From a virus, in the IMG/VR virus record IMGVR_UViG_3300022927_001696, positions 27,581 through 91,580 of that record: 64,000 nt of DNA; one strand, 5' to 3'. Shown here piece after piece: positions 11,201 to 59,007 of the stretch. The notes under the pieces are model-generated. The model did no database searches, had not been told where the DNA came from, and saw only the letters and a program-made list of their open reading frames with translations. Numbering within the stretch: position 1 is the first letter of the stretch; the number at the start of each line of letters is the position of its first letter. Both the position numbers and the translations under genes were made by a program.

Positions 11201-14200
11201 TAGACAGTAATCAATTGCAACAAAACGATTTATCAAGGTATTTAGATTATACATTAGTACTTAAAAAGGCAAGTATTACAGATAATTTAGTGATTTGGAC
11301 AAACCAAGAAATAGTTGATAAAAAATCTGCAATGATTAGAGATTTTGGTGCAGTATCAATGTTGCAAACAGATGTTGCGAACGTAACTCCTATTGATACA
11401 TATGAGATAACAAATATTCAACCTGCTTTTTCACAAGTAATTGAAGGGACAGCAACAGTAGGTGCAAACAGCACGGTTACAATCAGTTATAATCAGGGTG
11501 CACCTAAAAACGGAGACACAGTACGAATAGTTGATATTGCTGACAACAATCAAACATATAGTGCAAGTAATATAGCTCACAAAGATTACGGTAATGCAAA
11601 TTTATCACCGGCACCCGGAGCAGTCTATAATAGTTATATAGAGGTAACAACAAATGCGGCAAATGTTGCTAACATTGTGCCTAATGTGACGCCTATTGTT
11701 TTAACATTTACAGCAAGTGATTATGATGGTATAGAAGTTGAAGACGTTTTAGAAGAAGTATTTGTTGCGAGTAATGTAAATTATGCAACAGGCGTATTTG
11801 AAATTTACAGTGATTCTGCTGTGTTCCAATCCTATTTTGGAAATGTTGTTCATGATTCCAATATAGCAAATATAACCAGTAATATAACAAATATAAGTTA
11901 TTCAATAGATGTTAAGAGTAACATTCATAATCAACAGTATACAATAAGTAATGTAAATCCAAATACAAGTACATTTACAATTACTGATGCAAATGTAACG
12001 GCAAATGTTTCACCAGTTATGGTTGAATATTTCAATAAATGTGAACTTACCGTATTGCCTATTATTGCAAATACAACATCATATATGCACAATTTAGTTG
12101 CAGGAGATGTAATTAAAGTATTCTCACAAAATATCAGAGGGTACTATAACGTTCAAGATGCAACAGAAGAAACTATTATTATTAATGCACCTTATGATTC
12201 AAATATTGCAACAACAGGAAAAATTGTTACAAGAGGTGTAGATATACAAACAACCGAAAATCATAATTTAGATAAAAAGTATAAAGGCAAACGTGTTATG
12301 ATACACAATGCTGATAATAGATATTATAACCAGTTGTACAGAGTATTCAATGTTATTAATGACAATACAATAAGAAACACAGAAATATTTGCATACGAGC
12401 CAGGAAGAACCGAATTAGCAAATGCAATACTTACAACATTAGATCACGATGTTGTTAAGTTAAATAATACATCTATTAAAATAGACAACATATCCAGTGT
12501 TCCTGCTATTGCTGACAGTATAAACAGAACGCAGGCTATTAAACGTGGGTTTACAACCAGTGATACATTTGGATTAAGTTTCCCAATGCTTACAAATGGT
12601 ATAAACAATCTAGGATTTAAACCTTTAGATTTTGCAGGTAGTATACCATATGTCACAAAATTTGATAGAGAGGCATTAGAAAATTTAACCATAGCAGGTG
12701 GGTTACCCATAGCAAAAAATTTACCAACTGGATTTACTAAAGATAAAATAAAAGGAAATGAATTAGAGCCTAAGTATATAGAAGCAATGTCTAATAGAGA
12801 TGGAGTTCCTAATCCGATGACTTTTATAGAACCAATCGGGCAAGGTTCTAACTTACCATACAATCAACCAGTACAGAGTCCTATCAACAAAACTATTGAT
12901 CCTTATGTAGCACCAATTGATTATGGAGAGCCTAAGGATACAATTACAGAAGTTCCTGTTGTGAGAATAACAAGTAAAGGTGCTTCAAGACTAAAAGGTG
13001 TAGATAAAAATCCTAGATTAGGTAACAGGGAATCAGTTGTTTTGACAGCAAGTGTATTAGATACAGCACCAAAGAAAAAATGTGGTCCTGAGTGTTCAAC
13101 AACAAGATACAGAGGAACAAGAAAAGAAGATATTAAAAATCCAGTAACATGCTATACTGGTGTTAATCTTACAAACTGGTCAGTGAACGGAACAGGTAAA
13201 GACGAAAGAAAATGGCAGTCACAATACAGTGGATTTTATACCCCAACTAATTCTGCAGGTGGTAGTCATGGTAGTATTGGTTTCCAGAAACTTGGTATTG
13301 CTGGTGCAAAAACATGGAGTGATAACGGTTCTACAGAAAGTATCACAATGTCATTTACAAGTCAGACAAAAGGCACAATATACATACATGTATATCAAAT
13401 AGGTAAAGGAAGTTACGATACAACAAGAATAAGTGTTTCAGGAGGTTCACCTGATTTTAGCACTTTACCAGGTTATTATATTGGTAAGACTGAAAGAGCA
13501 GGTAGTGTATCACGAAATATAATTAGACTTGATTTAGAAGAAGGCGACAATATCACAATAACTGGAACTGTTAAGGGAGGTAGTAATCACTGGCATGCAT
13601 TAGAATTCCATTTATCCGCTCAAGAAGCCTCATTTAATACTTGTAGTCTTCCTCAAACAGACAATTCTGAAGAAGACTCTGGAACAGCAAATGCCCCATC
13701 TACTGGAACAGATACAGATAGAAAAATATTTGCTTATCATTATAAGGGTACTAGTATAGGATTCCCCTGGTGGTCTCAAGAAGAAAAAAGAAATCATTTT
13801 TATTCAGTTTCAAATGGCGGACTAGGCACATTGTTATTTGAACACTGGGGCATAGCAGATGCCATAAATATTTTCCAAGGTAAAGACAAAGAAAGTTGTA
13901 GTAAGTTAATCGGGCAATCTAATTTAGATCAATTAAGAAAATTAACAAGTGAAGAAAAAGATCTACTTATGCATGGGGAATTATGGGGGACAAGTGGTAC
14001 CAAAAATTTTGCTAAGACTCCATTTACAGGCGGTTTTAAACCTGAAAGTAAAATCACAAATAAAAGATACGGAGTAAGAGGTTCAGGTGCTTTAGACTTT
14101 AATATAAATGAAGAAGACGGAAAATTCTTGAGGATAGAAGTATACGGAAAAAGCACTTATCATCATGCATTACAACTACCAAATGTAATTCCAGATATAG

Positions 14201-17200
14201 AAAATCCAGGAGTAGATCCTAATCCAGTTGTAGGCTGTGGGGAGGAAACACCAATACCTGAAGATGCTAATTCAAGTGTTGTTGCAACACCTTCTGCAGG
14301 TGCTAAGACATCGATTATTACTCCTGTGGGCAACCCAACAACCAAGAAACAATCAGGCGGTAATAGAAGAAGAGGCGGTGGCGGCGGACACACCAGATAC
14401 GATCAGACTGCATATAAGTATCATCATAACTTTGCAGGCTTTAACAGGCCGTCTATGGCAGGATTTAGTTTTATACCAAGTATATTTAGAAAATCTGTAA
14501 AACTCACGTATGCACCAGACTATGGTGTTCCAGTTTCACTTGCTAGTGGTAGGTATGTAAATAATAATGTACAAAAAATCAGCGGTGGTTTCATATTACC
14601 ATTAGCAAAAAGATTGACATCTAATATTCCTTTAGATAGTGCACCATTAAGATCCTTAGACTCAAAAGAATTACCATTCTATAACATTTTAGATGCAAAT
14701 CAAAGATCATTTGAAAGAGGCGGTATTTTCTATAACTTTGATCCTAGAAAAATTAGTTCAAGTATTAAATTATCTGATGGCACATTCGTAGATGTTTCTA
14801 CAGGAACAACAATTACAGCAGGTGAAGACGGACAACTATTAGGATTAAATCTTGGTGAAACATTTAATTATGATAATCCATATGATGGTTCTAATCCATT
14901 TGGTCCACCGTCAGAAGACCCAGTTGACGTAATACCACCAGAAGAAATTTCTGAAGGTCCTGTACAACCTGATGAGTACAACGAAAATATGATTATTACT
15001 ATTACACCTACAGACGGTGACAATAATCCTGCAGGGCCCGAAGTTCCGGTGCCAATTTTTAGACCTACACCAGGATATACAATTGATTTAAATGGTATTA
15101 ATTTGAATCCAGAAGATGATTTCTTTATTAATGGAACTAGAATTGCTCCAAAAGGAAACAGTCAAGCAGATATTTTAAAATCTATAAATTGTGTAGCCGT
15201 AACAGGATTTGAAGCAAAACCTATAGGCAAAGATAAAATAAGGATCAGTAGTTGTACCAATGCTCCACTTACAGTAAAAGAAGGTTGCTCAGGTGGTGTA
15301 TACAAAGAAGTACTTGACTTCCATATTGTTAAATCATTTGTTAATTCTGAAGTAAGTAATACATCAGTACTAGCACCTGGTACAATATCTGGTAATACTA
15401 ATCCTGTAAATAATTACACACACTTAGATACTGATGGTGGTGTTATTGGAACATCCACATCAACAACATCAGGTGCAACAGGACAAGGTTATGTATTATC
15501 AAGTAAATCAGTAACCACAGGTGGTGACGGATATAGTGTTGGTGACAGACTTAGATTAATAGGTGGTACACCTATTACAGATCCGTTTGCAGGAATCAAA
15601 GAAATCTGTATTCCATTTGCAGGTGCCGGTTATAGTGCACCAGAAAATATTGTAATTACAATTGGAGATGGTACAACCCCAGGTAGAAATGCCACAGTTA
15701 AGGGTGTTGTATTTGATAAAAATAATGGTATTAAAAATGTACTTATAGATAATCCAGGAAGTGAATACGATGCAAATAGACCCCCAGTAGTAAATATAAT
15801 TGATACAGGTTCTGCACAATCACCTATAGTATGGGCAAGTAATATTTCAGTATCAACTAATGATTTAATTCAATACAACGTAAAGGGTGTAGAGTTTATT
15901 ACAAATATTAGCTCAGCAGATGCCGACAGAACACCAGGAACATACGATGTTGATACTTACAATTACAGTTTACAAGGTGGTAGAAAAGCAGAGTTTAGGA
16001 TTACTATAGATGAAACAGGCGCCGCAACAGTAGATATTTTAGCACCTGGAATAGATTTCCCTCAAATTGCAGGTGGTACGTTTACTATTGATGCCGGCGA
16101 TATAGGCGGCACAGGAAGTGATTTAACTTTTGATCTCTTTAGTGTAGGAACTGTAGACATAAAATATTATCAAGCATACGGTAATTTTACAACCGGTAAT
16201 ACATTTGATACAAATAATTTAAGAGAAAGAAACTCTTGGACTGCGCCTGTTCCTGCTAAATTAGAAGCAGTAGTGGCAGAAAACGGAAGAATACCTCGTG
16301 TTGCTAAATTTGAAGTAACAAGTACAGACTACTTAGGAGGTATAACATCTCTAAGAATAATAGACAGAGGTATATACAAAGTCTTCCCAAGTGACTTAAC
16401 AAATGGTTTACCTATAGAATACGATCACGTTAATTTAGGTGATGAAACCGGTACTGACGATGACGGAAACTTTACACAAGGTTCAGGTTTAGGTGAATTT
16501 GATCCTCAAACATTAATAGCTCTGGAATCACCTGGAGCATACGATCCTATATTAGGATTGACCGGAGGTGGTAGAGGTGCCAAAGTATTCTTAACTTCAA
16601 GAGAAATTCCAGACTGTAGTCAGAAAGGTGGAATGAAAGATGCTCTAGGCTTACCAGACTTAATAAACGATCTTAATCCTTTAGACGACTTAGCAAGTGC
16701 TATACAAGGAGCAATAGGCGATTACGGTTACGATCCAGATGATTTAAACGTTGACGTTGATGATATAAATGATTATATAGGCAGACTGAAAATAAATGCA
16801 CCTGGTTTCGAAGGCATTAATATAGATGAGTTGACACCAGGATTATTAACAAAATTAGGTATACCGCCTGGAGATTATAATGTTGCATCACTTTGTATAC
16901 AAGCAGTTGTAGAAACATCTGAAGCAGACGACAATCCGGTTGTAATTGATAAATTAACAGAATTTGCAGATAACTTAGGTTTAGGAATCAGTAAAGAAGG
17001 ACCTGTAGAAGTGTTAAAACTACTTTGTGTTGACACTATAGGTACAGGCCCAGGCTCACAGACACCTGGTCTTACAGATGACAATAATGTTAATATACCG
17101 GGTGCTTCATCTAATATAAATGGTGACGGTTCAAACGGGCAAGACAGAAATAGTATTTTTGGAGACGGTAAAGTTACATTTGCAAAAGACTTATATCAAT

Positions 17201-20200
17201 ATGAATTAAGAACAGTAACAGGTAAACCTGTAAATTTATTAGGTTCCGAAATAAGTCAGGAAACTGAAGTATTATATTTAGAAAGTCAAAGATACGATAC
17301 AGAAACTGCATTAGTTTCTGCAAATAATATAAACATTTCTAACAATATAAACACATTTGGTAATGTATGGATAGACGACTATCAAGGAAATGGTTGGGCA
17401 TATTTAGAAAACGGCGATATAATTCTACAACAAGAAGATATGGTTGATCCTAAATTTATAAACAACTCATTATTATATGATTCAGAAACAGGAAATAAAA
17501 AATATGACTTAGATCTGTGGGACCCATTTAAAGGTGTATTACCGGGCTTTATAGATAAAGAAATTGATTTTATAAGTGAAAATGATCCTGTAGTTTATAC
17601 ATCTTCCAGAAGTAAATTTGATGACAATTATGTTGGTAAGGTCTGGTGGGATACAAGTACACTAAGATATAATTGGTACGAACAAGGTACTAATAGACAA
17701 AGGTGGCTAAATTGGGGTAGCACGTTTCCTGGTAGTGTTATATCATTATATGAATGGGTTAAGAGTGATGTACCACCAACAGGCTTTGCTGGAGAAGGAA
17801 CACCTAAATCTACAGACGGTTATATAGAAAGAAAAGAAAGAAACCCTGTAACAAATATTCTACAACCTGTATATTACTACTGGGTAAGAAATTTAAAAGT
17901 TTTAAGTGATGAAGTTGCAAATAGATTAGGAAGAAATTACGATACATACACTCTAGCAACATATATTTCAGACCCAATAAATTACGGTTTAAATTTAATT
18001 AGTTTTATAAGTGATAATTCATTTGTTGCAAGTAACTTGTCACAAATAATAGATGATGAAGGAGATCATTTACAGATTAATTTCAGTAGAAGTTTAAATA
18101 ACGATGGTAAAAAACATGCCTCATGGGCATTAACTAGAGAAGGCGACAATAATAGTATTATACCAGAAGATCACAGTAGAAAATTAATAGATAGTATTTG
18201 TGAAAAAGATTCTGCAGGAAATATTGTACCGGACCCATTATTAAGTAAAGTACAAAAATATGGTATAAACTTTAGACCAAGACAAACAATGTTTAAAAAT
18301 GCTAAGGAAAGCAGAAGAGAACTTGTAAAATATTTAAACAATCTATTTGCTGGATTGAAATTAAATACAGAATATTCGAATTGGGATTCAACATTACCTG
18401 TAGAAAGAAAATATATTAAAACTGTTGATTGGTTTGAAACTAAAGGACGAGATAATGTTTCTAAACAACCTATTTATTTCGATGAAACATTTAAACCAAT
18501 TTACAAAGTTAATAGTACAGCAGAACTCTTTACATTAAATAATATAGATGACGGTACAGTTGTTCAAGTACAAGGTAGTGCTTCTGAAAGAGCAAAATTA
18601 TACATTTACGATGGCATTAGTAAGACATTTGGATTAATATCAATAAAAGCAGAAACAATACAAATAGATTCTTCTGCATATACCGATGATATAAACGACC
18701 AATTAGCAAATGAGTTACGTTTATTATTGCAATTATTAAAAGACAATGTTTTAAAAGAAAAAGTTATTTGGAATAATTTATTCTTTACAATGTTAAACTA
18801 TGCAATGGTAGAACAACCACAACTTGATTGGGCATTTAAAACAAGTTATGTATATGTCGAAAAAGAAGAAGAAGACCTTAAAGAATTTAAAGGATTTAAA
18901 CCTGATAACTTTGAAAAAGTTATAGAATATATGAATGAGGTAAAACCGTTTACAGCAAAAATCAGAGAATATAAAGACGGCAAGTCTACACCAATAGAAT
19001 ATATTAAAGATCAAATGATAAGTGATTTTGATAAACCGCCTTATGTAGATTTTGTAAATGGAACTGTAAGAATTTTAGATGAAAATAATGCAGACGATGT
19101 AACAATTTTAAGTACAGATACACAATATACAAAATACAATTCAATTTCTAATAAAGGCAGTAGCCCGATTAGACAAGGCAATACGACTATTGTATTTGAT
19201 AGAACAAACTGGAAACCCACACAATTTGAGTGGCAACCCTCAGTAGAATCCGCCAATTTAAGCATTGCCAAAAACTTAGCATGGTTGAGTTCAAGTTCAA
19301 ATACAATAGTTTCAGCCAACACAAATGTAAGGGCAGTTGATAGATTATTTAAATATGATAGTGGTATACAATCATCATTTAGTACAGGAATGCAAAATTA
19401 TTTAACAACAGAGTTAAGTTATTCTAGTGATGACGCAAGTAATATTGCAAATATAAATTTACAAAATAATATATTTAATGCTATAGAAACAGGATATCTT
19501 GATAGTACATTATCAGATCTTAAACTTAAAGTTGGAGGCAATTTTAAAGGTGAAATATTAGATGCAAATGTATTTACAAAGGTAGTTCCTGGCTCCGATG
19601 GCACCTCAGATTTGCAGACAACTTTTGCATATGATACATTAACATATGATTCTGATAGTTTAGATATAAATGCTGATGTTGTAAATTACTCAGGAACTTT
19701 CGATGATAGTGAAGTAGATTTCAGAAGATTTGATGCTACATATCAAGGTTTTGACGGCGTGACATTTAATAAAATGTTATATGGTGAAGAAAGACCGGAA
19801 GAATTGATTTCAATAGACCCACTAGAGAATTTTATAATTACAGTTACAACAAGTGGGTATGAAAACGGTGATGCAACTGGTAATCTAATTACTGCAAATG
19901 CAAGTACAGTAATATATAGAACACACAAAGACATGTTTGGTGGCGCAGAATTTATTAGAGTTAATTTATCAAATGCTACTACTTTATCAGCAAATGTTGA
20001 TGTAAAAGATGATGTTATAAGTGTTGTTGATGCTTCGATATTACCAAAACCTAGAGAAAATACACCAGGTGTTATTTGGATTGAATCAGAAAGAATTGAA
20101 TACAAATCTAGAGATACTGTTAATAATATAATAACTGAATTGACGAGAGGAACAAGAGGAACTACACCACAAAGTTGGATCATAACAGATGAGTCTGGTG

Positions 20201-20373
20201 CAAGTATTACAAGAAACGTATATGATGGTAGCGAAGATCAAACATTTACAAATTTAGTACAAGAACCAGAAAAAGGAATATGGTTAGACAGTGGTGCAAT
20301 AAGTTTATCTGATAAGGCAAATTCAGACATAGGAAATATATCAAGCATCATGAACTTCCTTCACAATAATTAA
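2296..20373 (+). CDS. Giant virion structural protein, 6025 aa, with YHYH domain
   Basis: This single uninterrupted frame fills 28% of the window. The N-terminus (MADKLYKKLPGIL) and position after a gp6-like gene suggest a baseplate or tail protein occupying the gp7/gp10 region of T4-type genomes. Visible modules: a basic N-terminal helix region; Gly-rich beta repeats with GSGY/GIGY turns near residues 240-310, 450-560, 2490-2530 and 4390-4600; a YHYH-type domain near 1590-1760 with VNGLPLYN and GWSFDGIPIYGPYGY; a Cys-containing carbohydrate-binding-like block near 3590-3790; a basic Gly-rich linker near 4015-4030; and a C-terminal region containing MLYGEERPEEL that resembles cyanophage structural proteins. 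The length far exceeds T4 gp7 (1032 aa), so it may be a fusion of several tail proteins. No stop or frameshift is visible. Confidence 0.8.
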   Translation: MADKLYKKLPGILQTDATKNFFESTVEQLFSKANVEVINGYVGLQKSEDFDVTSEFLRESTATRQHYALSPAVNTLNANTNASENLIFYDEFLDTLKISGTGTNNQNRLFSTDYSSFLPPIDIDKFVNYQEYYWSYDQLPAIRISGTVDNPIDIDVDIIGKKSFTSANGVTLKSGMRIIFDGGYVIPDTKTTAEYFVEGVGESIRLIDTNENVETPFSTATLTAWDSTAFTSNDSNVAYTAGNISSVSVLHGGIGYINPVVNFIGANTSVASATANVDSNGTITDVTVTNTGANYSAPISIQISSDSITTSLNSGNTFVTFLNESISQIAPYKTISVDSTNDVFAGQQFSLNGETRTIETVNNASIIAIENITNQYDSSRTPGSYIVNGTGGSGSGQEFIVDVVGPNADGIVEVGNITLSNTSLTGTYPIDFRSANSFIAGNITTSGTGANAYLSVTLDGSGGADIEIVKGGDGFVENDTITISDNILGGDGSGNLELVVTDAVTVGDTFISLSKNGSGFIVGETITISDSDLGGGGANNITFDIARIGDTLTIDEEIYLDGTSNGNIQFIANGFQASIQTSMFTLTSDANGSVITGVSSMALAGVNPTTGEFYLSGSPDFGENFGWDIDTDSSLPGGDAEGDIPWGGRTTQDNPDYNVVGRGASNKNIWSRVNFWHHADNFKEAGVDLPGAEYRAKRPIIEFDYSLEMFNTGNLSVGVVNIVSNEFNKDDIDGTISSDTVDNSPLSIGSTIIFPNDEDNKKYIFKIAHVGGNISLSKIGDPISNPADTEEGDVGFIPFEFKEGMQVSIKSGALGRGLEYHFKDNNLILAQSKLKLHQAPLFNLYNDEGKYLGDELLFKDNTFIGSKIFNYKVGTGTDDSVLNFPLSYKPFTNSAEIEFQNFLETDRTNYIPVGSTSETEILGYYYFKSQNGYSNNWKMSDSKSMQDIKTFYHINTFNIKDKNTKYYIGCEPNINSNKSSGYDITVLKNGSEIKDYTYVGKGFIEFNTFNFIAKDIIEIIAKSDSGLLNERSISKYTIPLNWSRNPDKENITFISEPEYLGHFTNLIKGQENFTGKELEANNFKDTAKNSKFATDIVNVEEDLRLGAFLLDDQPHNLLEAIRFSEREYTKYKNRLRSEVTKYYNSFDVNEFTNEYILNQVLRNVLSLNVGNNTFQQTYIVPFGDNYIEESFIINDVSLRSFTMTAYEDLKKLENSLLVYKARGNTHTLLTINEEFTLDSYNPIKITLNANLDIELGDIIYLKLYNKDRDSAQCPPTPSAMGLYPLTLPVIEKDYSFKEEISVLVGHDGSRSTLFGDARDDIILEFEKRIYNSAIEELIDANSLPSLNIFNVRAGAFRKTNFSNSEWFDLLSNNFSNWVKDNNVDPVINETYNSSDSWTWNFRGSQDIPGYWKGWYEYYYDTVRPHTHPWEMLGFTEKPSWWEDEYGTDYTSTNTALWDDLELGIIRKGPRANFVDNSYLDLPNNPCARIGLHEVIPVDGNGNLISPYDIISTGSTTLKTVWTNAFVSNTFPGNTFINNDGSLNNGVSVSTDASNIYISSNALVNHDINLTTNNVGHNELEEQIISYNVPFTSISGINSVTSNPTSMPEYAIGVLVNGLPLYNVASENSFDNGNTWHYNKLLSEHSDLELGHTDEKGLLHYYKPSPQILGLDEWSTDEHSPIVGWSFDGIPIYGPYGYTEYEANGDIKDNTITNIKSCFRLRLGDRISTPKGSYSGYFVEDYEYDSSKEGIPGHTGSTSSGSYGKYNLRYGITPDSNGTPIQFYVATQDDNGEPMFPYAIGGGTKTHSGGNLVYANKYYGTPQDIANNTLSKGYENTSASEIVRTIKTIDKSSTDKINDSWMLGDGAPVENAWKYSSSYPFAITTALLLAKPGRFATVFADPINVVSTNIEKKRLIHKNTRRSWNFKDSTDFIIHGSRDTNGNFVSNVGYTQFIKSYLNYQGLEIQDNFITPLKTLNIKLAHRMSGFIDKDTSTIRTDQYSITGSARTLIIPSENISINVHDSAYKSRNSYTGVIIEKTTNGYKVRGYDRSFSYFTILESDKNGRKQSIERGGKPADYVNWSTNQSFNINTIVKYLNSYYIAKEKIPASSSFDKSLWSRLPSLPQIGGAKGVYYNDTTGFTRRVNYDTEYTKVEDLFDFLVSLGRYQKSLGYSFGEYDTTINDVRDWAYAAEQFLFWTTGGWEIGNTLELSPMASNVIFENSNEFVAKINKTDKNQFTLLDQDGISISPEECSILRENNRIEITPPQGRQIYSAVLFTKQIEHALILDNLTDFNDTIYNPLLNQRQDRIFIKGKRTLGWTGRFSSEGYIIDNDELQPNLDNATSTMGDYHTLGFIPVDKDVYVASRSLFGFEERSYLTDLDILDDDQFEFYKGMLQSKGTEQSLSQIGRSSSIVQGNITVYSEWALKTGEFGDTDNEQSLELKIDKHEIVQDPQLFKLEFPEDVTGIIKDIVITENKHKYFTVPSLEISAPTKEPKEQATGLVTLDSDGLISSATITNQGSGYESQNAVAKVLAGNINISDTSTTFNVVIAQSSALFGNANVVGISDIEITDHFGNGLATNIDLSSANTVIDVVSAINSNSITNANVVASSVESFDANSNTNFYVLQITGNDFTLGGSGLANLNISADRYQPKQRYAIDIAGNTSAGTGATVKSDILVYVDNTLVSDTNYDYDAGDRWQFTTSSIITSGNYVQNILNPGSENSSSAFASENIVQVDGKYPFVDVYVNGTKLINDTNQTQYTVANTTAITFPDVTNLPGGKLDTNANVYIVERATIDFVDAYQGDIPGKTLQIKVQTNDGIAFTYGEKKLYTITPDIENDEIITIDIDDNERFLKKPTGARNNKLWPTTDKVNYSGVTDSDYRTLPNAGYVLRNNVDYQAYGVTDIADLFDVDRLYKPSKDNLIHVASSENKDWNVYKLRQPANSQISFVEQESIDDTAYLYSTSNLFDYIDSNQLQQNDLSRYLDYTLVLKKASITDNLVIWTNQEIVDKKSAMIRDFGAVSMLQTDVANVTPIDTYEITNIQPAFSQVIEGTATVGANSTVTISYNQGAPKNGDTVRIVDIADNNQTYSASNIAHKDYGNANLSPAPGAVYNSYIEVTTNAANVANIVPNVTPIVLTFTASDYDGIEVEDVLEEVFVASNVNYATGVFEIYSDSAVFQSYFGNVVHDSNIANITSNITNISYSIDVKSNIHNQQYTISNVNPNTSTFTITDANVTANVSPVMVEYFNKCELTVLPIIANTTSYMHNLVAGDVIKVFSQNIRGYYNVQDATEETIIINAPYDSNIATTGKIVTRGVDIQTTENHNLDKKYKGKRVMIHNADNRYYNQLYRVFNVINDNTIRNTEIFAYEPGRTELANAILTTLDHDVVKLNNTSIKIDNISSVPAIADSINRTQAIKRGFTTSDTFGLSFPMLTNGINNLGFKPLDFAGSIPYVTKFDREALENLTIAGGLPIAKNLPTGFTKDKIKGNELEPKYIEAMSNRDGVPNPMTFIEPIGQGSNLPYNQPVQSPINKTIDPYVAPIDYGEPKDTITEVPVVRITSKGASRLKGVDKNPRLGNRESVVLTASVLDTAPKKKCGPECSTTRYRGTRKEDIKNPVTCYTGVNLTNWSVNGTGKDERKWQSQYSGFYTPTNSAGGSHGSIGFQKLGIAGAKTWSDNGSTESITMSFTSQTKGTIYIHVYQIGKGSYDTTRISVSGGSPDFSTLPGYYIGKTERAGSVSRNIIRLDLEEGDNITITGTVKGGSNHWHALEFHLSAQEASFNTCSLPQTDNSEEDSGTANAPSTGTDTDRKIFAYHYKGTSIGFPWWSQEEKRNHFYSVSNGGLGTLLFEHWGIADAINIFQGKDKESCSKLIGQSNLDQLRKLTSEEKDLLMHGELWGTSGTKNFAKTPFTGGFKPESKITNKRYGVRGSGALDFNINEEDGKFLRIEVYGKSTYHHALQLPNVIPDIENPGVDPNPVVGCGEETPIPEDANSSVVATPSAGAKTSIITPVGNPTTKKQSGGNRRRGGGGGHTRYDQTAYKYHHNFAGFNRPSMAGFSFIPSIFRKSVKLTYAPDYGVPVSLASGRYVNNNVQKISGGFILPLAKRLTSNIPLDSAPLRSLDSKELPFYNILDANQRSFERGGIFYNFDPRKISSSIKLSDGTFVDVSTGTTITAGEDGQLLGLNLGETFNYDNPYDGSNPFGPPSEDPVDVIPPEEISEGPVQPDEYNENMIITITPTDGDNNPAGPEVPVPIFRPTPGYTIDLNGINLNPEDDFFINGTRIAPKGNSQADILKSINCVAVTGFEAKPIGKDKIRISSCTNAPLTVKEGCSGGVYKEVLDFHIVKSFVNSEVSNTSVLAPGTISGNTNPVNNYTHLDTDGGVIGTSTSTTSGATGQGYVLSSKSVTTGGDGYSVGDRLRLIGGTPITDPFAGIKEICIPFAGAGYSAPENIVITIGDGTTPGRNATVKGVVFDKNNGIKNVLIDNPGSEYDANRPPVVNIIDTGSAQSPIVWASNISVSTNDLIQYNVKGVEFITNISSADADRTPGTYDVDTYNYSLQGGRKAEFRITIDETGAATVDILAPGIDFPQIAGGTFTIDAGDIGGTGSDLTFDLFSVGTVDIKYYQAYGNFTTGNTFDTNNLRERNSWTAPVPAKLEAVVAENGRIPRVAKFEVTSTDYLGGITSLRIIDRGIYKVFPSDLTNGLPIEYDHVNLGDETGTDDDGNFTQGSGLGEFDPQTLIALESPGAYDPILGLTGGGRGAKVFLTSREIPDCSQKGGMKDALGLPDLINDLNPLDDLASAIQGAIGDYGYDPDDLNVDVDDINDYIGRLKINAPGFEGINIDELTPGLLTKLGIPPGDYNVASLCIQAVVETSEADDNPVVIDKLTEFADNLGLGISKEGPVEVLKLLCVDTIGTGPGSQTPGLTDDNNVNIPGASSNINGDGSNGQDRNSIFGDGKVTFAKDLYQYELRTVTGKPVNLLGSEISQETEVLYLESQRYDTETALVSANNINISNNINTFGNVWIDDYQGNGWAYLENGDIILQQEDMVDPKFINNSLLYDSETGNKKYDLDLWDPFKGVLPGFIDKEIDFISENDPVVYTSSRSKFDDNYVGKVWWDTSTLRYNWYEQGTNRQRWLNWGSTFPGSVISLYEWVKSDVPPTGFAGEGTPKSTDGYIERKERNPVTNILQPVYYYWVRNLKVLSDEVANRLGRNYDTYTLATYISDPINYGLNLISFISDNSFVASNLSQIIDDEGDHLQINFSRSLNNDGKKHASWALTREGDNNSIIPEDHSRKLIDSICEKDSAGNIVPDPLLSKVQKYGINFRPRQTMFKNAKESRRELVKYLNNLFAGLKLNTEYSNWDSTLPVERKYIKTVDWFETKGRDNVSKQPIYFDETFKPIYKVNSTAELFTLNNIDDGTVVQVQGSASERAKLYIYDGISKTFGLISIKAETIQIDSSAYTDDINDQLANELRLLLQLLKDNVLKEKVIWNNLFFTMLNYAMVEQPQLDWAFKTSYVYVEKEEEDLKEFKGFKPDNFEKVIEYMNEVKPFTAKIREYKDGKSTPIEYIKDQMISDFDKPPYVDFVNGTVRILDENNADDVTILSTDTQYTKYNSISNKGSSPIRQGNTTIVFDRTNWKPTQFEWQPSVESANLSIAKNLAWLSSSSNTIVSANTNVRAVDRLFKYDSGIQSSFSTGMQNYLTTELSYSSDDASNIANINLQNNIFNAIETGYLDSTLSDLKLKVGGNFKGEILDANVFTKVVPGSDGTSDLQTTFAYDTLTYDSDSLDINADVVNYSGTFDDSEVDFRRFDATYQGFDGVTFNKMLYGEERPEELISIDPLENFIITVTTSGYENGDATGNLITANASTVIYRTHKDMFGGAEFIRVNLSNATTLSANVDVKDDVISVVDASILPKPRENTPGVIWIESERIEYKSRDTVNNIITELTRGTRGTTPQSWIITDESGASITRNVYDGSEDQTFTNLVQEPEKGIWLDSGAISLSDKANSDIGNISSIMNFLHNN

Positions 20374-20393
20374 TAATATGTTTTTTGAAATAT

Positions 20394-20401
20394 GATAAAT
20401 A
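20394..20401 (+). promoter_or_regulatory. T4-type late promoter box (GATAAATA)
   Basis: GATAAATA differs from the T4 late consensus TATAAATA only at the first base. Five bases (GTTAC) separate it from the ATG at 20407, so transcription starting at the usual distance would begin at or next to the start codon. Confidence 0.6.
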
Positions 20402-20406
20402 GTTAC

Positions 20407-21045
20407 ATGGAACACAAGATGAAAGAAAATAACGAACAAAACGTAGATACAAGCCATACTATAGATAATGCCGGTATCAACGTAAGTGGTCACATCTTAA
20501 TCAGAGACAAAGACACAGGCGAAGAATTAATAAACAAGAGAAATGCTATCCATTATGGAAATATGGCATTTATTGTAGCACAGGCATTAAATGGGTTTAA
20601 TACAGAAAATGCATTTATAGATAGAATTGCATTTGGTAATGGTGCTACTAGTGTTGATACCTCTGGTAAAGTAATTTATAAGTCACCTAAGGTAAGTGAA
20701 TCGTATGAGAATTCTGCTTCATTATATAGTAGAACATACTCTAAAAGATTAAATCCTGCGACTTCGGATACATTCATAGAAACTATTAGTGGTGCAAGTT
20801 ATACTGATATAAAGATAAGTTGTACACTTGGTTATAATGAACCCAGTGATGCAGAAAATTTTGATTCTTCAGCAAATAATGAAGGTGACTATGTGTTTGA
20901 CGAACTTGGTCTATTTACATTTCCAACAGATGGTTCTGATATAGATACTAGTACCATGCTTACACATGTAATCTTTCATCCAGTGCAAAAGAGTCAAAAT
21001 AGAAAAATCGAAGTTGTATATACAGTAAGAGTACAACTGAGCTAA
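20407..21045 (+). CDS. Virion structural protein (tail/baseplate accessory)
   Basis: I chose the ATG at 20407 (MEHKMKENN) over the in-frame ATG at 20392 because the late box lies between them; the protein is 212 residues. It contains a conserved-looking block VSGHILIRDKDTGEELINKR followed by NAIHYGNM and ends in a strand-rich segment with HVIFHPVQKSQNRKIEVVYT. Similar small proteins sit among tail genes in marine T4-type phages, but I cannot name an equivalent T4 gene. It lies between the giant structural gene and a probable fibre gene, so a virion role is inferred from context and beta-rich composition. Confidence 0.6.
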   Translation: MEHKMKENNEQNVDTSHTIDNAGINVSGHILIRDKDTGEELINKRNAIHYGNMAFIVAQALNGFNTENAFIDRIAFGNGATSVDTSGKVIYKSPKVSESYENSASLYSRTYSKRLNPATSDTFIETISGASYTDIKISCTLGYNEPSDAENFDSSANNEGDYVFDELGLFTFPTDGSDIDTSTMLTHVIFHPVQKSQNRKIEVVYTVRVQLS

Positions 21046-21056
21046 TGGGGTAAACG

Positions 21057-23042
21057 ATGGCATATACAATTACAAATTCAGATAGTAGTGTTACAATAAC
21101 AGTTCAGGACACAACTGTCGATACAACCTATGCCTTAAAATTAATAGGTAGAAATGTATCAGGATACGGTCAGTACTTTGTAGAGAATACAGTACGACAA
21201 TTAGAAAATTTTGCAAGTACAGTTCAACCATCCGGTATAAAATTAGAAGGACAAATTTGGTACGACAAGGGTGAAAAAATTCTAAAAGTTTGGACTGGAA
21301 CTAACTGGAAAAGAGCAACAAATATTGTAATTGGTACATCTGAACCTACAAATTCTGTAGCAGGTGACGCCTGGTATAGAACAGATAACAAAAAATTATA
21401 TATTTACGATGGTTCAAATTTTGCTTTATCAGGTTATGCAGGTGAAATATCAGATGCATATAAAAACGATTCCACAGTAGGAAATCCAAATAATTACGGT
21501 ACAAAATTAAGAAACATCTATCTAACAGATAGTACAGGTAAAGCGAAACCAGTCTTAGCATTAACAATGGTTAACGATGGTTCTTTAAATGCTGGTACAA
21601 CTGTAACGCCAGATGGTAAAGAAACTATAATGGCAATATTCAGTGATCATCCGGAGTTTACTGCTAAAAACGATAACAGTATTTCAGAAGGGTCACAAAT
21701 AAATTATTACAATGAGTTAGTAAATTCAAGTGGTATAGGTACTACTATTAAACCAGGTCTTAATTTAAGAAGTGAGTATGCAGATACGGCTGTTGCACTT
21801 TCAGAAAGAGCATACAGATCAGATGCTTCATATAAATTAAATCTGGGAACACCTGGTACAGATGCAGGTAATATTGATGCAAGTTGGGTAGCATACAACA
21901 GAGTTGACTTTATACCTAATACAACAAACAGCATTCAATTAGGTAACGATCAAAAACATTTTGCAGGATTATACACAAATTTAATAAGAATAGGTGAAGG
22001 CGGAACAGCGGCCATAGAAGCAAATGGTACTATAAGTATTGGTAACAGCAGTAGCAGAGTAAATAAAATATGGTCACAAGATTTAGATGTTAGCGGAGAT
22101 ATAACATTTGGGTCAGGTGTGCAAAATATAGGTGCAAGTGGCACTCCAGTAGAGAATTTTTATACTGCGAATGCTGTAGTTAGTTCTTCTTTTACTGTTG
22201 GTAGCGGAGGTTCAGCATATACATTACCTTCATCAGACGGAACAACAGACTATGCTTTAATAACAAATGGTTCAGGCACAGTAAGTTTTGGACCAGTACC
22301 ATTGACAACAACACAAATGATTGCCGGTGCAGGTTTAACAGGTGGCGGTACTCTTGCAAGTGATAGAACATTTAATGTAGGCGCTGGTTCGTACATCACA
22401 GTAGCCGCAGATTCAGTAAGTGTTGACGGAACAGTACCAGCAACAGCAAGTAAAGTTGTTGTAAGGACAGGTTCAGGCGGAATTAATTCTGAAGGATTAG
22501 ATGCAGGTGCTGGAACAATAGAAACAACAGGAACAGTAAGAGGTGGTACTGTAACGGACGGAACATTAAGTATTTCTTCTGGAAGTATTACATCAGGTGC
22601 AACTGCAACATTCTCAGGTAATGTTGACGCCGCAAACTTTAACGGTGTAGCATCGTCGGCCAAATATGCTGACTTGGCTGAGATATATGAGGCAGATGCA
22701 GACTACGAGCCTGGTACAGTTGTTAAAATAGGCGGAGAAAAAGAAATTACACAAACATCAAGTCATGCAGATTTAGAAGTATTTGGTGTTATCAGTACAG
22801 ATCCTGCATATTTAATGAACAGTGATGCAAGTGGATTACCAGTAGCATTACAGGGTAGAGTACCAGTTAAAGTTGTAGGTAAAATTAAGAAAGGCGAAAG
22901 ATTAGTAGCAAGTGACGAACCAGGATATGCTTGGGGACTAGGATCAGACGAGTATGACCCAAGATCAATTATTGGTAGAGCATTACAAGATAAAGAAGAC
23001 GGCGGCTTGGGAATTATCGAAGCAGTCATAGGTATTAAATAG
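21057..23042 (+). CDS. Tail-fibre-like protein with C-terminal cleavage-type domain
   Basis: The 661-residue protein begins with a domain seen in fibres of marine T4-type phages (KLIGRNVSGYGQYFVENT, residues about 28-46, then LEGQIWYD). The middle is low-complexity Gly/Ser/Thr beta repeat (for example VGAGSYITVAADSVSVDG) typical of trimeric fibres. Residues about 535-650 (KYADLAEIYEADADYEPGT, then VALQGRVPVKVVGKIKKGE) resemble the Peptidase_G2/IMC autoproteolytic domain that caps some phage fibres and is removed after folding. The ATG at 21057 follows a GGGG ribosome-binding site. Self-cleavage is family-based inference; I did not identify the catalytic residues. Confidence 0.65.
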   Translation: MAYTITNSDSSVTITVQDTTVDTTYALKLIGRNVSGYGQYFVENTVRQLENFASTVQPSGIKLEGQIWYDKGEKILKVWTGTNWKRATNIVIGTSEPTNSVAGDAWYRTDNKKLYIYDGSNFALSGYAGEISDAYKNDSTVGNPNNYGTKLRNIYLTDSTGKAKPVLALTMVNDGSLNAGTTVTPDGKETIMAIFSDHPEFTAKNDNSISEGSQINYYNELVNSSGIGTTIKPGLNLRSEYADTAVALSERAYRSDASYKLNLGTPGTDAGNIDASWVAYNRVDFIPNTTNSIQLGNDQKHFAGLYTNLIRIGEGGTAAIEANGTISIGNSSSRVNKIWSQDLDVSGDITFGSGVQNIGASGTPVENFYTANAVVSSSFTVGSGGSAYTLPSSDGTTDYALITNGSGTVSFGPVPLTTTQMIAGAGLTGGGTLASDRTFNVGAGSYITVAADSVSVDGTVPATASKVVVRTGSGGINSEGLDAGAGTIETTGTVRGGTVTDGTLSISSGSITSGATATFSGNVDAANFNGVASSAKYADLAEIYEADADYEPGTVVKIGGEKEITQTSSHADLEVFGVISTDPAYLMNSDASGLPVALQGRVPVKVVGKIKKGERLVASDEPGYAWGLGSDEYDPRSIIGRALQDKEDGGLGIIEAVIGIK

Positions 23043-23049
23043 ATAAATA
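23042..23049 (+). promoter_or_regulatory. T4-type late promoter box (GATAAATA) with leader and ribosome-binding site
   Basis: GATAAATA overlaps the stop codon of the fibre gene. Unlike the leaderless cases, it is followed by a leader of about 23 bases with AGGAG at 23062-23066 before the ATG at 23073. Confidence 0.65.
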
Positions 23050-23072
23050 CACTATATATTTAGGAGATTTAG

Positions 23073-24110
23073 ATGGCATCAGGATCAACAGTTTCACTAA
23101 CAGGCGGAACTAATATGACGCAAGTTGTATCAGGTGACGTTATAGACGACGCAGATTTCAATAATGCTAGAACCAATGTAAATAACATGCTAGGCAATGC
23201 TCAGGATGTAACATTAGGCACATATACAGCATCATCAACATACGGTTACACCCAGGGTGGTGTAGGTGTAAATGCCGCTAGTGCAGGTGGATTGGTATAC
23301 GCCGATAACGCCACAGGCGGTTTTAAAAGATTACAAGACGATGTACAGGCATTATGTGCATTCTTAGGCCAAACTGTTAGAAGTGGTGTTGGTAGTGATG
23401 TAACAAGTAGTACAACTATTACAGCATCTACATGGTCTAATTTAATGTTAAACATCAAAGATTGTTGGGATAACAGATTTTCACCAGCAAGTAGAACTCT
23501 ATCAACAATAGGCACAGTAACTAGAACAAGTGCATGGAGTTCAACATTAACACAAGAAACAACATATACATTTGCTAATGAACAAACTGCTAGAGGTTAT
23601 TTTAACGGTGGTGGAAGAATTGGTTTCAGTTCAAGTAGATCAGGCGGTAGTTCAACAACTCAAAATACTGACTGGACAAACTTATTAAGTGCGATGGGTT
23701 TTGTGTATATTACACATAATACGGCAGGTGGTGCTTCAGGTACTAATGCAGGTAAAGGATTTTACGAGTTAACTACATCATATCAAACACTATGGACAAA
23801 ATACGGTTCAGGTGCTTATGCAAGTAACTTCTTTAGAATGGACGGTAAAGTTAATTCAACAACTAACCCAACAGTTGTAACACTTAAAGCAACATATAGT
23901 GATCCATATACAGCGGCGGCGGCCGCGGCGGCAGATGGTGCTGTGGGTCCTGACGGTGTACCAAGTACAGGTGACGATGCTTCAGGATACACAGACAGCA
24001 TTGACGGAACACTAACACTTAATGCTAGAGCACAGGTACCAGATGCTAACGGTTCAGGATTTAGTTTTTCTGCTCCAACAGACAGTATGGGTGCTATAAG
24101 CGGTTCATAA
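23073..24110 (+). CDS. Virion structural protein, Ala/Gly/Ser-rich
   Basis: This 345-residue protein starts MASGSTVSLTGGTNMTQVVSG and is dominated by small residues and short beta motifs, with a helical segment near residues 75-130 (KRLQDDVQALCAFLG). Near residue 280 there is a run of seven alanines encoded by an unusually GC-rich stretch (23912-23932), followed by a Gly/Asp segment reading DGAVGPDGVPSTGDDASG. It has its own late promoter and AGGAG site and is followed by an intrinsic terminator, so it can be a separate late transcript. Composition and position suggest an abundant virion component, perhaps a short fibre or decoration protein; no domain was recognised with certainty. Confidence 0.6.
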   Translation: MASGSTVSLTGGTNMTQVVSGDVIDDADFNNARTNVNNMLGNAQDVTLGTYTASSTYGYTQGGVGVNAASAGGLVYADNATGGFKRLQDDVQALCAFLGQTVRSGVGSDVTSSTTITASTWSNLMLNIKDCWDNRFSPASRTLSTIGTVTRTSAWSSTLTQETTYTFANEQTARGYFNGGGRIGFSSSRSGGSSTTQNTDWTNLLSAMGFVYITHNTAGGASGTNAGKGFYELTTSYQTLWTKYGSGAYASNFFRMDGKVNSTTNPTVVTLKATYSDPYTAAAAAAADGAVGPDGVPSTGDDASGYTDSIDGTLTLNARAQVPDANGSGFSFSAPTDSMGAISGS

Positions 24111-24127
24111 AATTAACAATATACAAG

Positions 24128-24150
24128 AAAAGGGCTATTGCCCTTTTTTT
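24128..24150 (+). terminator. Intrinsic terminator after the structural block
   Basis: AAAAGGGC, loop TATT, GCCCTTTT, then continuing T residues to 24150. An eight-pair stem with a T7 tail is a textbook Rho-independent terminator. It separates the virion genes from the following cassette. Confidence 0.9.
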
Positions 24151-24153
24151 GTG

Positions 24154-24161
24154 ACTAAATA
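24154..24161 (+). promoter_or_regulatory. Late-promoter-like box (ACTAAATA)
   Basis: ACTAAATA lies just after the terminator and exactly five bases (TTAGC) before the ATG at 24167. It has no room for a ribosome-binding site. The location between a terminator and a gene start makes promoter function likely despite mismatches in the first two bases. Confidence 0.55.
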
Positions 24162-24166
24162 TTAGC

Positions 24167-25402
24167 ATGTTAAATTACAAAATTACAGAGTTCTATATAG
24201 AACACTTACAGGGAGTTTTGGACGACCTTGTGCGTAATAATTATAATGAAGGAATAATTGAATTTAAAAATAAAAAAGTATTAATTCTTTACTTGGAAGA
24301 TCCTTTATTAGATAAAGCATTACAAACTTTTAAATTAATAAAAAAACATGATAATCTAGACGGTATAATATTATTTAATCCTTCAGAAGTAATAGACTTT
24401 GAAATAATAAAAGTATTTTATTTTTATTGTATAGATAATAAAATTAATCACATTGCTATACATGATCCTAGATTGAATGATGGTAATCAGATAAATTTTC
24501 CTTTTGCTGGAAGAAATGTATCCATGCCCGTAATACCAACAACAGTCCTAGGACTAATAATCAATACTAATATAAATCCAGATGTTATAGAAAATTTAGA
24601 TCTATCTAATACAGACTGGGAGGGCATTAACAAAAAATTACAGGAAAATAAATTAAGACATGATAGATATTACTATTATACAAAAGATAACTTCAAATCC
24701 GGTAGCGAAAGAAATGTTTTATTCACTTGTTATAATAGGCAACCAAGAGTAAATAGAGTTTTATTAATAAATGAAATTTGCAAACAGGATTTGCATGAAA
24801 AAGGTGTTATAAGTTGTGGGTATCATGATGCAAAATTTAAATATTATAAAGATTTAGTAGAAGAAAAATATGTAGACTTATTCCCCATGCAATTAGAAGA
24901 TAGTACGATATACACAAATCAAAGTATAAATGATGAAATATGTAACCAGTCTATAACTAATGAACAATTAAATTCTTTTATAAATGTTGTTTCAGAAAGT
25001 TCAAGTGATTGTAATATCTTACCTTTAGATAAGGACAGTTGGACAGCACCTTTTTTTACTGAAAAAACTGCAAAAGCATTTATTTGTCATAATATTCCAT
25101 TATTCTATGCAACAAGATTTTATGTAAAGAAATTAAGAGATTTAAATTTTGATGTTTTTGATGATTTTATAGATCACAGTTATGATACTGAAATAAACCC
25201 AATTAGAAGAGTGGAAAAACTCACAAATGAATTAAAACGACTATGCTCTTTGCCTAAATCAGAACTCGTCGATATAGTAGACGGGTTAGAACACAGAATG
25301 AAAAGCAACATGTTAAATCTTATACATTATATGAATGATATAGATATAGACAAATCCAAAGAATTTTTAAAATTTTTTGAGGGCGTAGCAAAAAATAAAT
25401 AG
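24167..25402 (+). CDS. Putative glycosyltransferase, GT10-like C-terminal region
   Basis: A 411-residue protein opening the modification cassette. Its C-terminal third contains FFTEKTAKAF, IPLFYATRF and FDVFDDFIDHSYD followed by a helical tail. This matches in order the corresponding blocks of the gene at 41026-42228, so the two are paralogues. The arrangement of an E-K motif, a short strand and an acidic D-x-x-D-H block recalls the nucleotide-sugar-binding half of GT10 (fucosyltransferase-type) enzymes. The N-terminal half is divergent and may bind the acceptor. GT10 membership is a fold-level inference; donor and acceptor are unknown. Confidence 0.5.
   Translation: MLNYKITEFYIEHLQGVLDDLVRNNYNEGIIEFKNKKVLILYLEDPLLDKALQTFKLIKKHDNLDGIILFNPSEVIDFEIIKVFYFYCIDNKINHIAIHDPRLNDGNQINFPFAGRNVSMPVIPTTVLGLIINTNINPDVIENLDLSNTDWEGINKKLQENKLRHDRYYYYTKDNFKSGSERNVLFTCYNRQPRVNRVLLINEICKQDLHEKGVISCGYHDAKFKYYKDLVEEKYVDLFPMQLEDSTIYTNQSINDEICNQSITNEQLNSFINVVSESSSDCNILPLDKDSWTAPFFTEKTAKAFICHNIPLFYATRFYVKKLRDLNFDVFDDFIDHSYDTEINPIRRVEKLTNELKRLCSLPKSELVDIVDGLEHRMKSNMLNLIHYMNDIDIDKSKEFLKFFEGVAKNK
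25394..25401 (+). promoter_or_regulatory. Late-promoter-like box (AATAAATA)
   Basis: AATAAATA overlaps the end of the preceding gene, whose TAG stop is embedded in the box, and lies five bases (GTTAT) before the ATG at 25407. Confidence 0.55.
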
Positions 25403-25406
25403 TTAT

Positions 25407-26036
25407 ATGGAACTATATTGGAAATTTGATATCCCTGCACAAAAATTGTCTGTAAATATAGATGACAATTTATCTTATCAGGCTCTTAAAGGCTGTCGTG
25501 AAGGAGTGATAAAAACTTATAACAGTAAGGAATCATTTATTTCTTATGAAGATTGGCAAACAGAAAAAGAATGGCTTTCTAAAAATTATTCTCATATTGT
25601 AGGTGAACTAAAGGAGCCAAGTTTAGAGGAAATGAATTCATATAGAGAAAGAATTTCTCACATAACAGATGATCCAGGTGAGCCCTCTCACGGAATATCT
25701 TTAGACGGCTGGGCATATGATCGAATGCAACGAAAATCTTTATGGTTGCAGAATGCTGAATGTTCTTTAATGGTAGAAATAGGCAGAATAGAAAATGTAG
25801 GTATTTTTGAAACACCAGACGGAACAAATGTTTATAAAAGACCGTGGTGTGAATACGAAAATACATATTATAATACTATGCCCTGTTGTGTCTTTCCGGA
25901 CAATCCTGGATGGCAAAAATCCAGTATACAAGAATTAGAAAAATATGATTTAGATATTAATCATGACTGGGTTAAAAGTAATTTAAATAATGTACAAAAA
26001 GATTTATTGAATTCTTTATTTGTTTTACCAGCATAA
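25407..26036 (+). CDS. Hypothetical protein, Trp/Glu-rich
   Basis: The 209-residue protein has no signal peptide or membrane segment. It is rich in Trp, Tyr and Glu, with blocks LSYQALKGCREGVIKTYN near the start and MPCCVFPDNPGWQKSS near residue 160 containing a Cys pair. The predicted leaderless start is supported by the late box five bases upstream. I do not recognise a family. Its place between a glycosyltransferase-like gene and other cassette genes suggests participation in the same process, but nothing in the sequence gives a reaction. Confidence 0.6.
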   Translation: MELYWKFDIPAQKLSVNIDDNLSYQALKGCREGVIKTYNSKESFISYEDWQTEKEWLSKNYSHIVGELKEPSLEEMNSYRERISHITDDPGEPSHGISLDGWAYDRMQRKSLWLQNAECSLMVEIGRIENVGIFETPDGTNVYKRPWCEYENTYYNTMPCCVFPDNPGWQKSSIQELEKYDLDINHDWVKSNLNNVQKDLLNSLFVLPA

Positions 26037-26043
26037 CTTTGTA

Positions 26044-26051
26044 GGTAAATA
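26044..26051 (+). promoter_or_regulatory. Late-promoter-like box (GGTAAATA)
   Basis: GGTAAATA in the 20-base gap between genes, exactly five bases (TAGAT) before the ATG at 26057, repeating the spacing seen at 20407, 24167, 25407 and 58994. Confidence 0.5.
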
Positions 26052-26056
26052 TAGAT

Positions 26057-26416
26057 ATGAGTACACATTTGAATAAAGCTCTTGAGTTTGCAAATTATCG
26101 AGTCACATTAAATAATCAGCATTCGCAACTTAAAGCAAAAACACAAAGTTTGTTAAGTTATAGTATAAATGGCGGAACATTTACTATAGATATACCCCTT
26201 ATCACATTTTGTAAACAACTATTAGATGACAAATATACTGATGTCATACTTTTAGATATTTACAATAATCCCATAAAAATAGATGTTAAAACGTTTTATG
26301 ATGAAATTCATAGTAGATATTTTGAAGTAACAAACGATTACTATGCTGAATATGAAAAACTTCGCAAAGCAAGAAAAGTTCATAAGGTTTTAGGTCTAAA
26401 TGAAAAAGGAGAATAG
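26057..26416 (+). CDS. Conserved phage hypothetical protein
   Basis: This 119-residue soluble protein is predicted helix-strand-helix, with ALEFANYRVTLNNQHSQLK at the N-terminus, a central FTIDIPLITFCKQLL and a C-terminal charged helix. I recall this general pattern as a small conserved hypothetical in marine T4-type phages, without an assigned function. Its start is preceded by a late-type box at the five-base spacing. It overlaps the following glycosyltransferase gene by 17 bases, so the two are probably co-translated. Confidence 0.65.
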   Translation: MSTHLNKALEFANYRVTLNNQHSQLKAKTQSLLSYSINGGTFTIDIPLITFCKQLLDDKYTDVILLDIYNNPIKIDVKTFYDEIHSRYFEVTNDYYAEYEKLRKARKVHKVLGLNEKGE

Positions 26417-37096: not shown

Positions 37097-37104
37097 GATA
37101 AATA
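37097..37104 (+). promoter_or_regulatory. T4-type late promoter box (GATAAATA) with leader
   Basis: GATAAATA in the 63-base gap before the dehydrogenase gene, with AGGAG at 37129-37133 and the ATG at 37140. The box is also the right arm of a 7-base inverted repeat (TTTATCA/TGATAAA, 37082-37103). Confidence 0.65.
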
Positions 37105-58069: not shown

Positions 58070-58077
58070 TATTTATC
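58070..58077 (-). promoter_or_regulatory. T4-type late promoter box (GATAAATA), minus strand
   Basis: GATAAATA read on the minus strand, followed by a 23-base leader with AGGAG and the ATG at 58046. Spacing and leader resemble the plus-strand element at 23042. Confidence 0.65.
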
Positions 58078-58549: not shown

Positions 58550-58779
58550 TACTTACTTGCTTCTACTAAGGCTTTGTATTCTGTAAAGCCGCCTATCTTC
58601 TCGCCGTTTACTATAATTTGTGGGAATGTTCTTGCTCCTGGAAAAGTTTCGAATAACTCTTCTCTGCTGAAGTCTTCATCTAACATTTTATATATTAATT
58701 CATGTCCTTCTCTTTCTGCTAGACCTTTTGCTTGTACACAAAATGGACATGCTGGTTTACTGTATATTTCTACTTTCAT
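58549..58779 (-). CDS. grx: Glutaredoxin
   Basis: The 76-residue protein has CPFC with active cysteines 11 and 14, a TFPQIIVNG cis-proline segment and IGGFTEYKAL, the standard glutaredoxin order and length. It would reduce disulfides using glutathione, for example to support phage ribonucleotide reductase as T4 NrdC does. It is coupled to the cytochrome gene downstream and follows the cold-shock-like gene directly. Confidence 0.9.
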   Translation of the reverse strand: MKVEIYSKPACPFCVQAKGLAEREGHELIYKMLDEDFSREELFETFPGARTFPQIIVNGEKIGGFTEYKALVEASK

Positions 58780-58994
58780 TATTCGCTTTTAGTTTTAGGT
58801 GTGAGATCACACGTTGAGTTAATTTCCATACCGTTAATTTCCCTATTAAATTCTACTTCCATACCTTTTAATAATTCAGCAGGGGCAGGAGGATTTACAA
58901 TATGATGTCTTTTAACATACACATTATTCTTACCTTCAGATACTACACCGTAATGTTTTCTACTATTCCAAAAATTTAATGTGCCTGTATTCAT
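58779..58994 (-). CDS. Cold-shock-domain-like protein
   Basis: I place the start at 58994 (MNTGTLNFWNSRKHYGVV), not at the longer in-frame ATG 59054, because a perfect late box ends five bases upstream and the frame then begins exactly at a cold-shock fold. In the 71-residue product, KHYGVV replaces RNP1 KGFGFI and NVYVKRHHI replaces RNP2 DVFVHHS; LLKGMEVEFNREINGME matches the family's last strands. Such proteins bind single-stranded nucleic acid. The replaced aromatic residues suggest altered binding. Confidence 0.7.
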   Translation of the reverse strand: MNTGTLNFWNSRKHYGVVSEGKNNVYVKRHHIVNPPAPAELLKGMEVEFNREINGMEINSTCDLTPKTKSE

Positions 58995-58999
58995 AACTG

Positions 59000-59007
59000 T
59001 ATTTATA
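59000..59007 (-). promoter_or_regulatory. T4-type late promoter box (perfect TATAAATA), minus strand
   Basis: TATAAATA matches the T4 late consensus completely. It is followed by CAGTT and the ATG at 58994, the same five-base spacing seen at four plus-strand genes. Confidence 0.75.

Follow-up and report, generated by a model that had tools for sequence, protein, structure and literature searches.

Five genes in a 64,000-base stretch of viral DNA (here called the window; bases 27581-91580 of the 91,580-base IMG/VR virus record IMGVR_UViG_3300022927_001696) begin with an ATG that is preceded, at a distance of exactly five bases, by the hexamer TAAATA. We refer to this arrangement, a TAAATA box exactly 5 bases before the start ATG, as N5. 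What kind of element is a box placed so close to a start codon, and what message would it produce? Our analysis indicates that it is very probably a T4-type late promoter fused to the AUG, giving rise to a leaderless subset of late genes.

A sequence-only reading of the window had reported five TAAATA-N5-ATG sites. All are present, with plus-strand boxes at 20396, 24156, 25396 and 26046 serving the ATGs at 20407, 24167, 25407 and 26057, and a minus-strand site at the ATG at 58994. The bare pattern is unremarkable in the window (7 matches vs 3.57 expected; at least 7 in 9 of 100 shuffles) because AT-rich DNA yields chance matches; two of the matches, at 51691 (+) and 27938 (−), lie within other genes and were dropped as starts. 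Counted at gene starts, five among about 50 genes prove as striking as had been claimed: 5 of the 51 window genes carry the box at spacing 5, against 0.24 for each other spacing (p 4e-6).

The same reading had proposed counting these distances genome-wide and in relatives. With genes taken from a simple gene caller, TAAATA-to-start-codon distances were measured in whole genomes, and spacing 5 alone stands out. The complete 91.6-kb record has 6 genes at this spacing vs 0.38 expected (p 2.6e-6). Among its relatives, the uncultured 250-kb contig G001 has 31 of 259 genes (vs 1.5, p 1.5e-30) and the uncultured 340-kb contig G002 has 19 of 379 (vs 1.65, p 1.5e-14), with 7 more at spacing 6. The cultured Pelagibacter phage HTVC008M follows with 11 of 180 (vs 0.47, p 3e-12), and further N5 genes were counted in contigs G005 (9), G006 (4) and G008 (4) and in Pelagibacter phage Mosig (6). 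Control motifs show no peak at spacing 5. No gene in the sets of T4, Syn9 or G003, a distant jumbo contig, has the box at this distance; in these genomes it lies mostly 20-28 bases upstream, where a leadered promoter is expected. Spacings 1-4 are nearly empty, as expected if a shorter distance would cut off the AUG. Across 17 records, GATAAATA-N5-ATG is matched 52 times and its reversed control once. When 120 IMG/VR stretches were sampled without targeting, spacing 5 was counted 9 times before open reading frames (ORFs) vs about once at most other spacings. Of the 14 TAAATA-N5-ATG sites of HTVC008M, 12 coincide with start codons in the independently made GenBank annotation. Two side observations belong to these counts: secondary spacing groups exist at 17 bases in G001 and 6 bases in G002, and in the untargeted sample N0 (TAAATAATG) forms another peak ahead of ORFs, perhaps reflecting stop-start overlap.

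The geometry of the box predicts where the transcript would begin. The T4 late box comprises 8 bp beginning at −13 (PMC2988020); it therefore ends at −6, and five spacer bases place +1 on the A of the ATG. Features outside the search pattern agree with this position. A C or T stands directly before the ATG in 91 of 93 N5 genes; of the other starts in these genomes, roughly 30-50% have one. The 93 genes are related across genomes and so only partly independent; G001 alone has a −1 pyrimidine in 31 of 31. A pyrimidine at −1 followed by a purine at +1 is the usual bacterial initiator. The leadered late promoters of these phages, too, most often have their pyrimidine-A step at bases 5-6 past the box (38 of 79), and in most orthologs of gene 20407 with a spacing of six to eight bases this step stays fixed relative to the box while the ATG is shifted. 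Because these three features concur, we place the transcript start on the A of the ATG; the 5′ end at the A of the AUG is thus a strong inference from box geometry and the −1 pyrimidine. The starts themselves are nearly uniform, with ATG in 62 of 64 candidates, and a Shine-Dalgarno sequence precedes only 4 of 67, compared with about half of other genes.

The box is of the T4 TATAAATA type. Its consensus, (G/A)ATAAATA in 73 N5 genes, is strictly kept; single-base variants at this position are near background, TAAGTA alone exceeding it. Between −50 and −14 the base composition at N5 genes is flat, hence there is no −35 element. The record also carries a T4 gp55-family late sigma gene at 16898-17758 of the record, outside the window (phrog_12791, E 3e-94). 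The strict box, the flat region from −50 to −14 and the gp55 homolog together lead us to a T4-type late promoter rather than a host −10 element.

Based on these observations, we propose the following scheme, in which the N5 genes would be expressed late. T4-type late promoters (GATAAATA/AATAAATA) would be read by the phage gp55-type late sigma, the box being placed so that transcription would start on the A of the start codon. Late mRNA would then begin 5′-AUG, and its translation would have to be leaderless. Ordinary leadered late genes also occur in these phages, with the same box about 17-35 bases upstream and a Shine-Dalgarno sequence. The suggestion of the sequence-only reading, that T4-type late initiation would let the mRNA begin at the AUG, is supported by the spacing peak, the orthologs, the pyrimidine-A step, the terminators and the divergent pairs described here.

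Conservation is best documented for gene 20407. Its orthologs (63 non-redundant loci) have box-N5-ATG in 39 cases, including three with ATGATG whose second ATG is at spacing five, and N6-N8 in 14. Spacer letters change while the box and its distance are mostly kept; the most divergent orthologs (42-48% identity) have a 17-24-base leader or no box, with one exception at N8. Several other orthologous families share N5 between genomes. The gene for gp25 is N5 in the record itself, G001, G002 and HTVC008M, those for the terminase large subunit and the head-tail adaptor are N5 in G001 and G002, and the 119-residue family of gene 26057 is N5 in several genomes. A phage-encoded CHASE2-adenylate/guanylate cyclase protein, whose role is unassigned, is N5 in G001 (85415, −), G002 (251521, −) and HTVC008M (11972, +). 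N5 genes of known function are mostly virion genes, among them terminase, gp2, gp3, gp4, gp25, gp48 and the tape measure, joined by a 2OG-Fe oxygenase, endonuclease V and the cyclase.

Could the late promoter be real, and the ATGs nevertheless be translated mainly from read-through transcripts, the adjacency of promoter and start reflecting only genome compaction? Read-through RNA is conceivable, given that a same-strand gene precedes 55 of the 72 N5 genes of the jumbo group. Compaction alone, however, would not single out one exact spacing and leave the shorter ones almost unused, and Shine-Dalgarno sequences are missing at these starts. The surroundings of the N5 genes speak in the same direction: intrinsic terminators lie within 60 nt upstream of 12 of 93 N5 genes but of only 7 of 1438 others (p 4e-11), directly before the box, and the upstream gap has a median of 36 in N5 genes vs 2 in other genes. 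In HTVC008M, the divergent gp2 and gp4 genes (18916, −; 18943, +) have 26 bp between their start codons and one late box per strand, back to back, which leaves no room for another promoter and leader; a similar divergent pair in G001 has starts 59 bp apart. We thus regard translation from read-through RNA as improbable. The boxes might instead be ordinary, possibly extended, −10 elements of the host sigma70, in which case the genes would be leaderless but not specifically late. Position and start distance suit a −10 element, and GTGATAAATA in one gene family looks like an extended one. Yet the region from −50 to −14 offers no −35, the box is far tighter than a sigma70 −10, with TAAGTA as the sole variant above background, and a T4-late-like sequence, a gp55 homolog and virion genes (terminase, gp25, gp48, tape measure) among those served are all at odds with it, making this reading slightly more improbable still.

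It is also conceivable that TAAATA at a fixed distance is a translation element, such as an A/U-rich ribosome or S1 site, since it stands directly before the start codon, where such elements act. However, these phages also carry the same box at a long distance, ahead of leaders with a Shine-Dalgarno sequence, and the pyrimidine-A initiator tracks the box and not the ATG; a translation element would have no need for a −1 pyrimidine. N5 genes moreover avoid operon-internal positions, 8% lying within 5 nt of the upstream gene vs 54% of others, and we consider a translational role very unlikely. Chance in AT-rich DNA, which would fit the raw pattern count in the window, is refuted by the enrichment at window gene starts, by the far stronger one in G001 and by conservation in orthologs; its probability is negligible.

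Several points weigh against the fused late promoter that we prefer. Gene 20407 has an in-frame ATG five codons upstream (20392), within the box, and some of its orthologs have an in-frame GTG at that position. In Methylophilales phage Melnitz the N5 enrichment is marginal (3 genes, p 0.06). The gp45 clamp and the gp33 co-activator were both found in HTVC008M, Mosig, Melnitz, T4 and Syn9 (T4 gp33 weakly). In the jumbo lineage neither turned up, though the models searched with were weak, and the Pfam clamp model misses Syn9 too. Finally, "leaderless" denotes a strong inference and not a demonstration.

Within the window, the first late box (GATAAATA, 20394-20401, +) places TAAATA 5 bases before ATG 20407 and is kept in orthologs from about 60 distinct IMG/VR contigs. 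It precedes a predicted leaderless late gene of the phrog_11259 family (20407-21045, +; 212 amino acids), for which the PHROGs match was obtained with the longer reading 20392-21045. This gene lies 3′ of a single ORF of 6025 amino acids (2296-20373, +), which is directly upstream of it. Further along, an intrinsic terminator, AAAAGGGC-TATT-GCCCTTTTTTT (24128-24151, +; −18.1 kcal/mol, z −5.5), ends about 5 bases before the second late box (ACTAAATA, 24154-24161, +) and should block read-through from upstream. This box stands 5 bases before ATG 24167 of a predicted leaderless late gene of 411 amino acids (24167-25402, +) that has no Pfam or PHROGs match. The third box (AATAAATA, 25394-25401, +) overlaps the stop codon of that gene and lies 5 bases before ATG 25407, the start of a predicted leaderless late gene of 209 amino acids whose function is unassigned (25407-26036, +). 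The fourth (GGTAAATA, 26044-26051, +) lies 5 bases before ATG 26057, where a predicted leaderless late gene of 119 amino acids begins (26057-26416, +). Its orthologs in G001 (72%) and G002 (57%) are both N5, and each follows a terminator or a T-rich terminator-like tail. Two of the five window boxes, ACTAAATA at 24154 and GGTAAATA at 26044, depart from the NATAAATA consensus one base 5′ of TAAATA.

The minus-strand box (TATAAATA, 59000-59007) is a perfect T4 consensus 5 bases before ATG 58994, the start of a predicted leaderless gene of 71 amino acids (58779-58994, −), of which no homolog was found in the genomes compared. A longer ORF that begins at 59054 and contains this start is possible, but it would overlap the gene upstream; 58994 was preferred as it avoids the overlap. 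The comparison class of leadered late genes, which the sequence-only reading had recognized at 23073, 37140 and 58046 by their AGGAG, is as described: GATAAATA stands 23 bases before ATG 23073 (23042-23049, +), 35 bases before ATG 37140 (37097-37104, +) and 23 bases before ATG 58046 (58070-58077, −), with AGGAG in each leader. At 57456 (+), antisense to a called gene, AATAAATA is followed by TTTAGGAG and an ATG, a possible leadered late promoter of a small unlisted ORF.

The window's baseplate protein and the protein read from 20392 share about 30-46% identity with those of T4-superfamily jumbo phages (PA5oct, RaK2, 121Q, Phosso). Uncultured contigs, G001 and G002 among them, are closer relatives, and megablast returned no near-identical phage in the phage collection. 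The N5 phenomenon is shared by at least two lineages of phages. Its promoters are present in the marine jumbo phages and in the SAR11 pelagimyophages, which are separate branches of the T4 superfamily, and are absent from T4, Syn9, G003 and Cr30. SAR11 is the host of both HTVC008M and Mosig. With HTVC008M the jumbo contigs have in common a CsgF-like protein and the cyclase gene, and this sharing hints at similar hosts.

We considered several causes of this distribution. Ribosomal protein bS21 is encoded by G002 (145827-145979, −), HTVC008M (91237, +), Mosig (9983-10132, −) and Melnitz (35461, +); it was rejected as the cause because G001, the genome richest in N5 genes, yielded none. No phage-encoded initiation factor IF3 was found either. 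An alphaproteobacterial host is not sufficient, Caulobacter phage Cr30 and Sinorhizobium phage phiM12 being without excess at spacing 5. Nor is a habit of the host a satisfactory cause, since TATAAT has no peak just before ATG in 400 kb of SAR11 genome; TATAAT-N6-ATG is little above control in three genomes. In the same 400 kb, a Shine-Dalgarno core is present in 43 of 386 genes, and the same test finds it in about half of phage genes. A single origin was set aside because the N5 phages do not form one group in terminase and gp55 trees, which are small, have long branches and are compatible with one gain and later losses. It is a possible, if rather doubtful, extension that a leaderless late regulon arose independently in both lineages as a translational switch, with late ribosomes tuned (e.g., by phage bS21) toward AUG-first messages.

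With a promoter fused to the start codon, the transcription start site would also set the mode of translation start. One study applied cyanophage methods to pelagimyophages in search of late promoters, without success (PMC7029224); the N5 placement may explain this failure. The Melnitz paper lists 15 late promoters, and the part of it consulted does not remark on their position (PMC9004378); a pelagiphage RNA sequencing study covers HTVC022P and HTVC027P, not HTVC008M (PMC12753301). In the open-access literature, to which the search was confined, we came across no account of leaderless late genes in phages of the T4 type. N5 can serve as a simple rule by which start codons are corrected and late promoters located in phages that abound in the ocean. 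A ready test system is HTVC008M with its host Pelagibacter HTCC1062.

Late transcription in T4 is the textbook example of phage expression that is coupled to replication and switched by a sigma factor, and a leader carrying a Shine-Dalgarno sequence is typical of its late genes. The promoters described here resemble those of T4 (gp55/gp33/gp45) in their box sequence, the lack of a −35, a start about one helical turn downstream and a gp55-type sigma in the genome. They differ in that the box of T4 and Syn9 typically lies 20-28 bases ahead of the start codon, leaving room for a leader, and no gene in the sets tested has it at spacing 5, whereas the N5 subset would have zero leader, and its commonest first box letter is G instead of T4's T. 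The nearest published idea is that of −10 elements next to ORFs in Deinococcus-Thermus (PMC12340547), where a promoter element directly before the ORF likewise gives leaderless mRNA under a spacing requirement. The sigma there is the housekeeping factor of the host, and the TANNNT motif is loose; the N5 promoters would combine a phage late sigma with a strict TAAATA and one exact spacing. The lambda cI mRNA also begins at its AUG without a Shine-Dalgarno sequence, but it represents an isolated repressor gene, whereas the N5 genes number as many as 31 in one genome and include several structural ones. Translation of leaderless messages is known to resist kasugamycin (PMC5230787). Lastly, the phiKZ late promoters (TATG, with G as the start; PMC5312081) are likewise a late class of a jumbo phage with a very short motif near the start, but they are served by a phage-encoded RNA polymerase, and both box and enzyme are unrelated to those proposed here.

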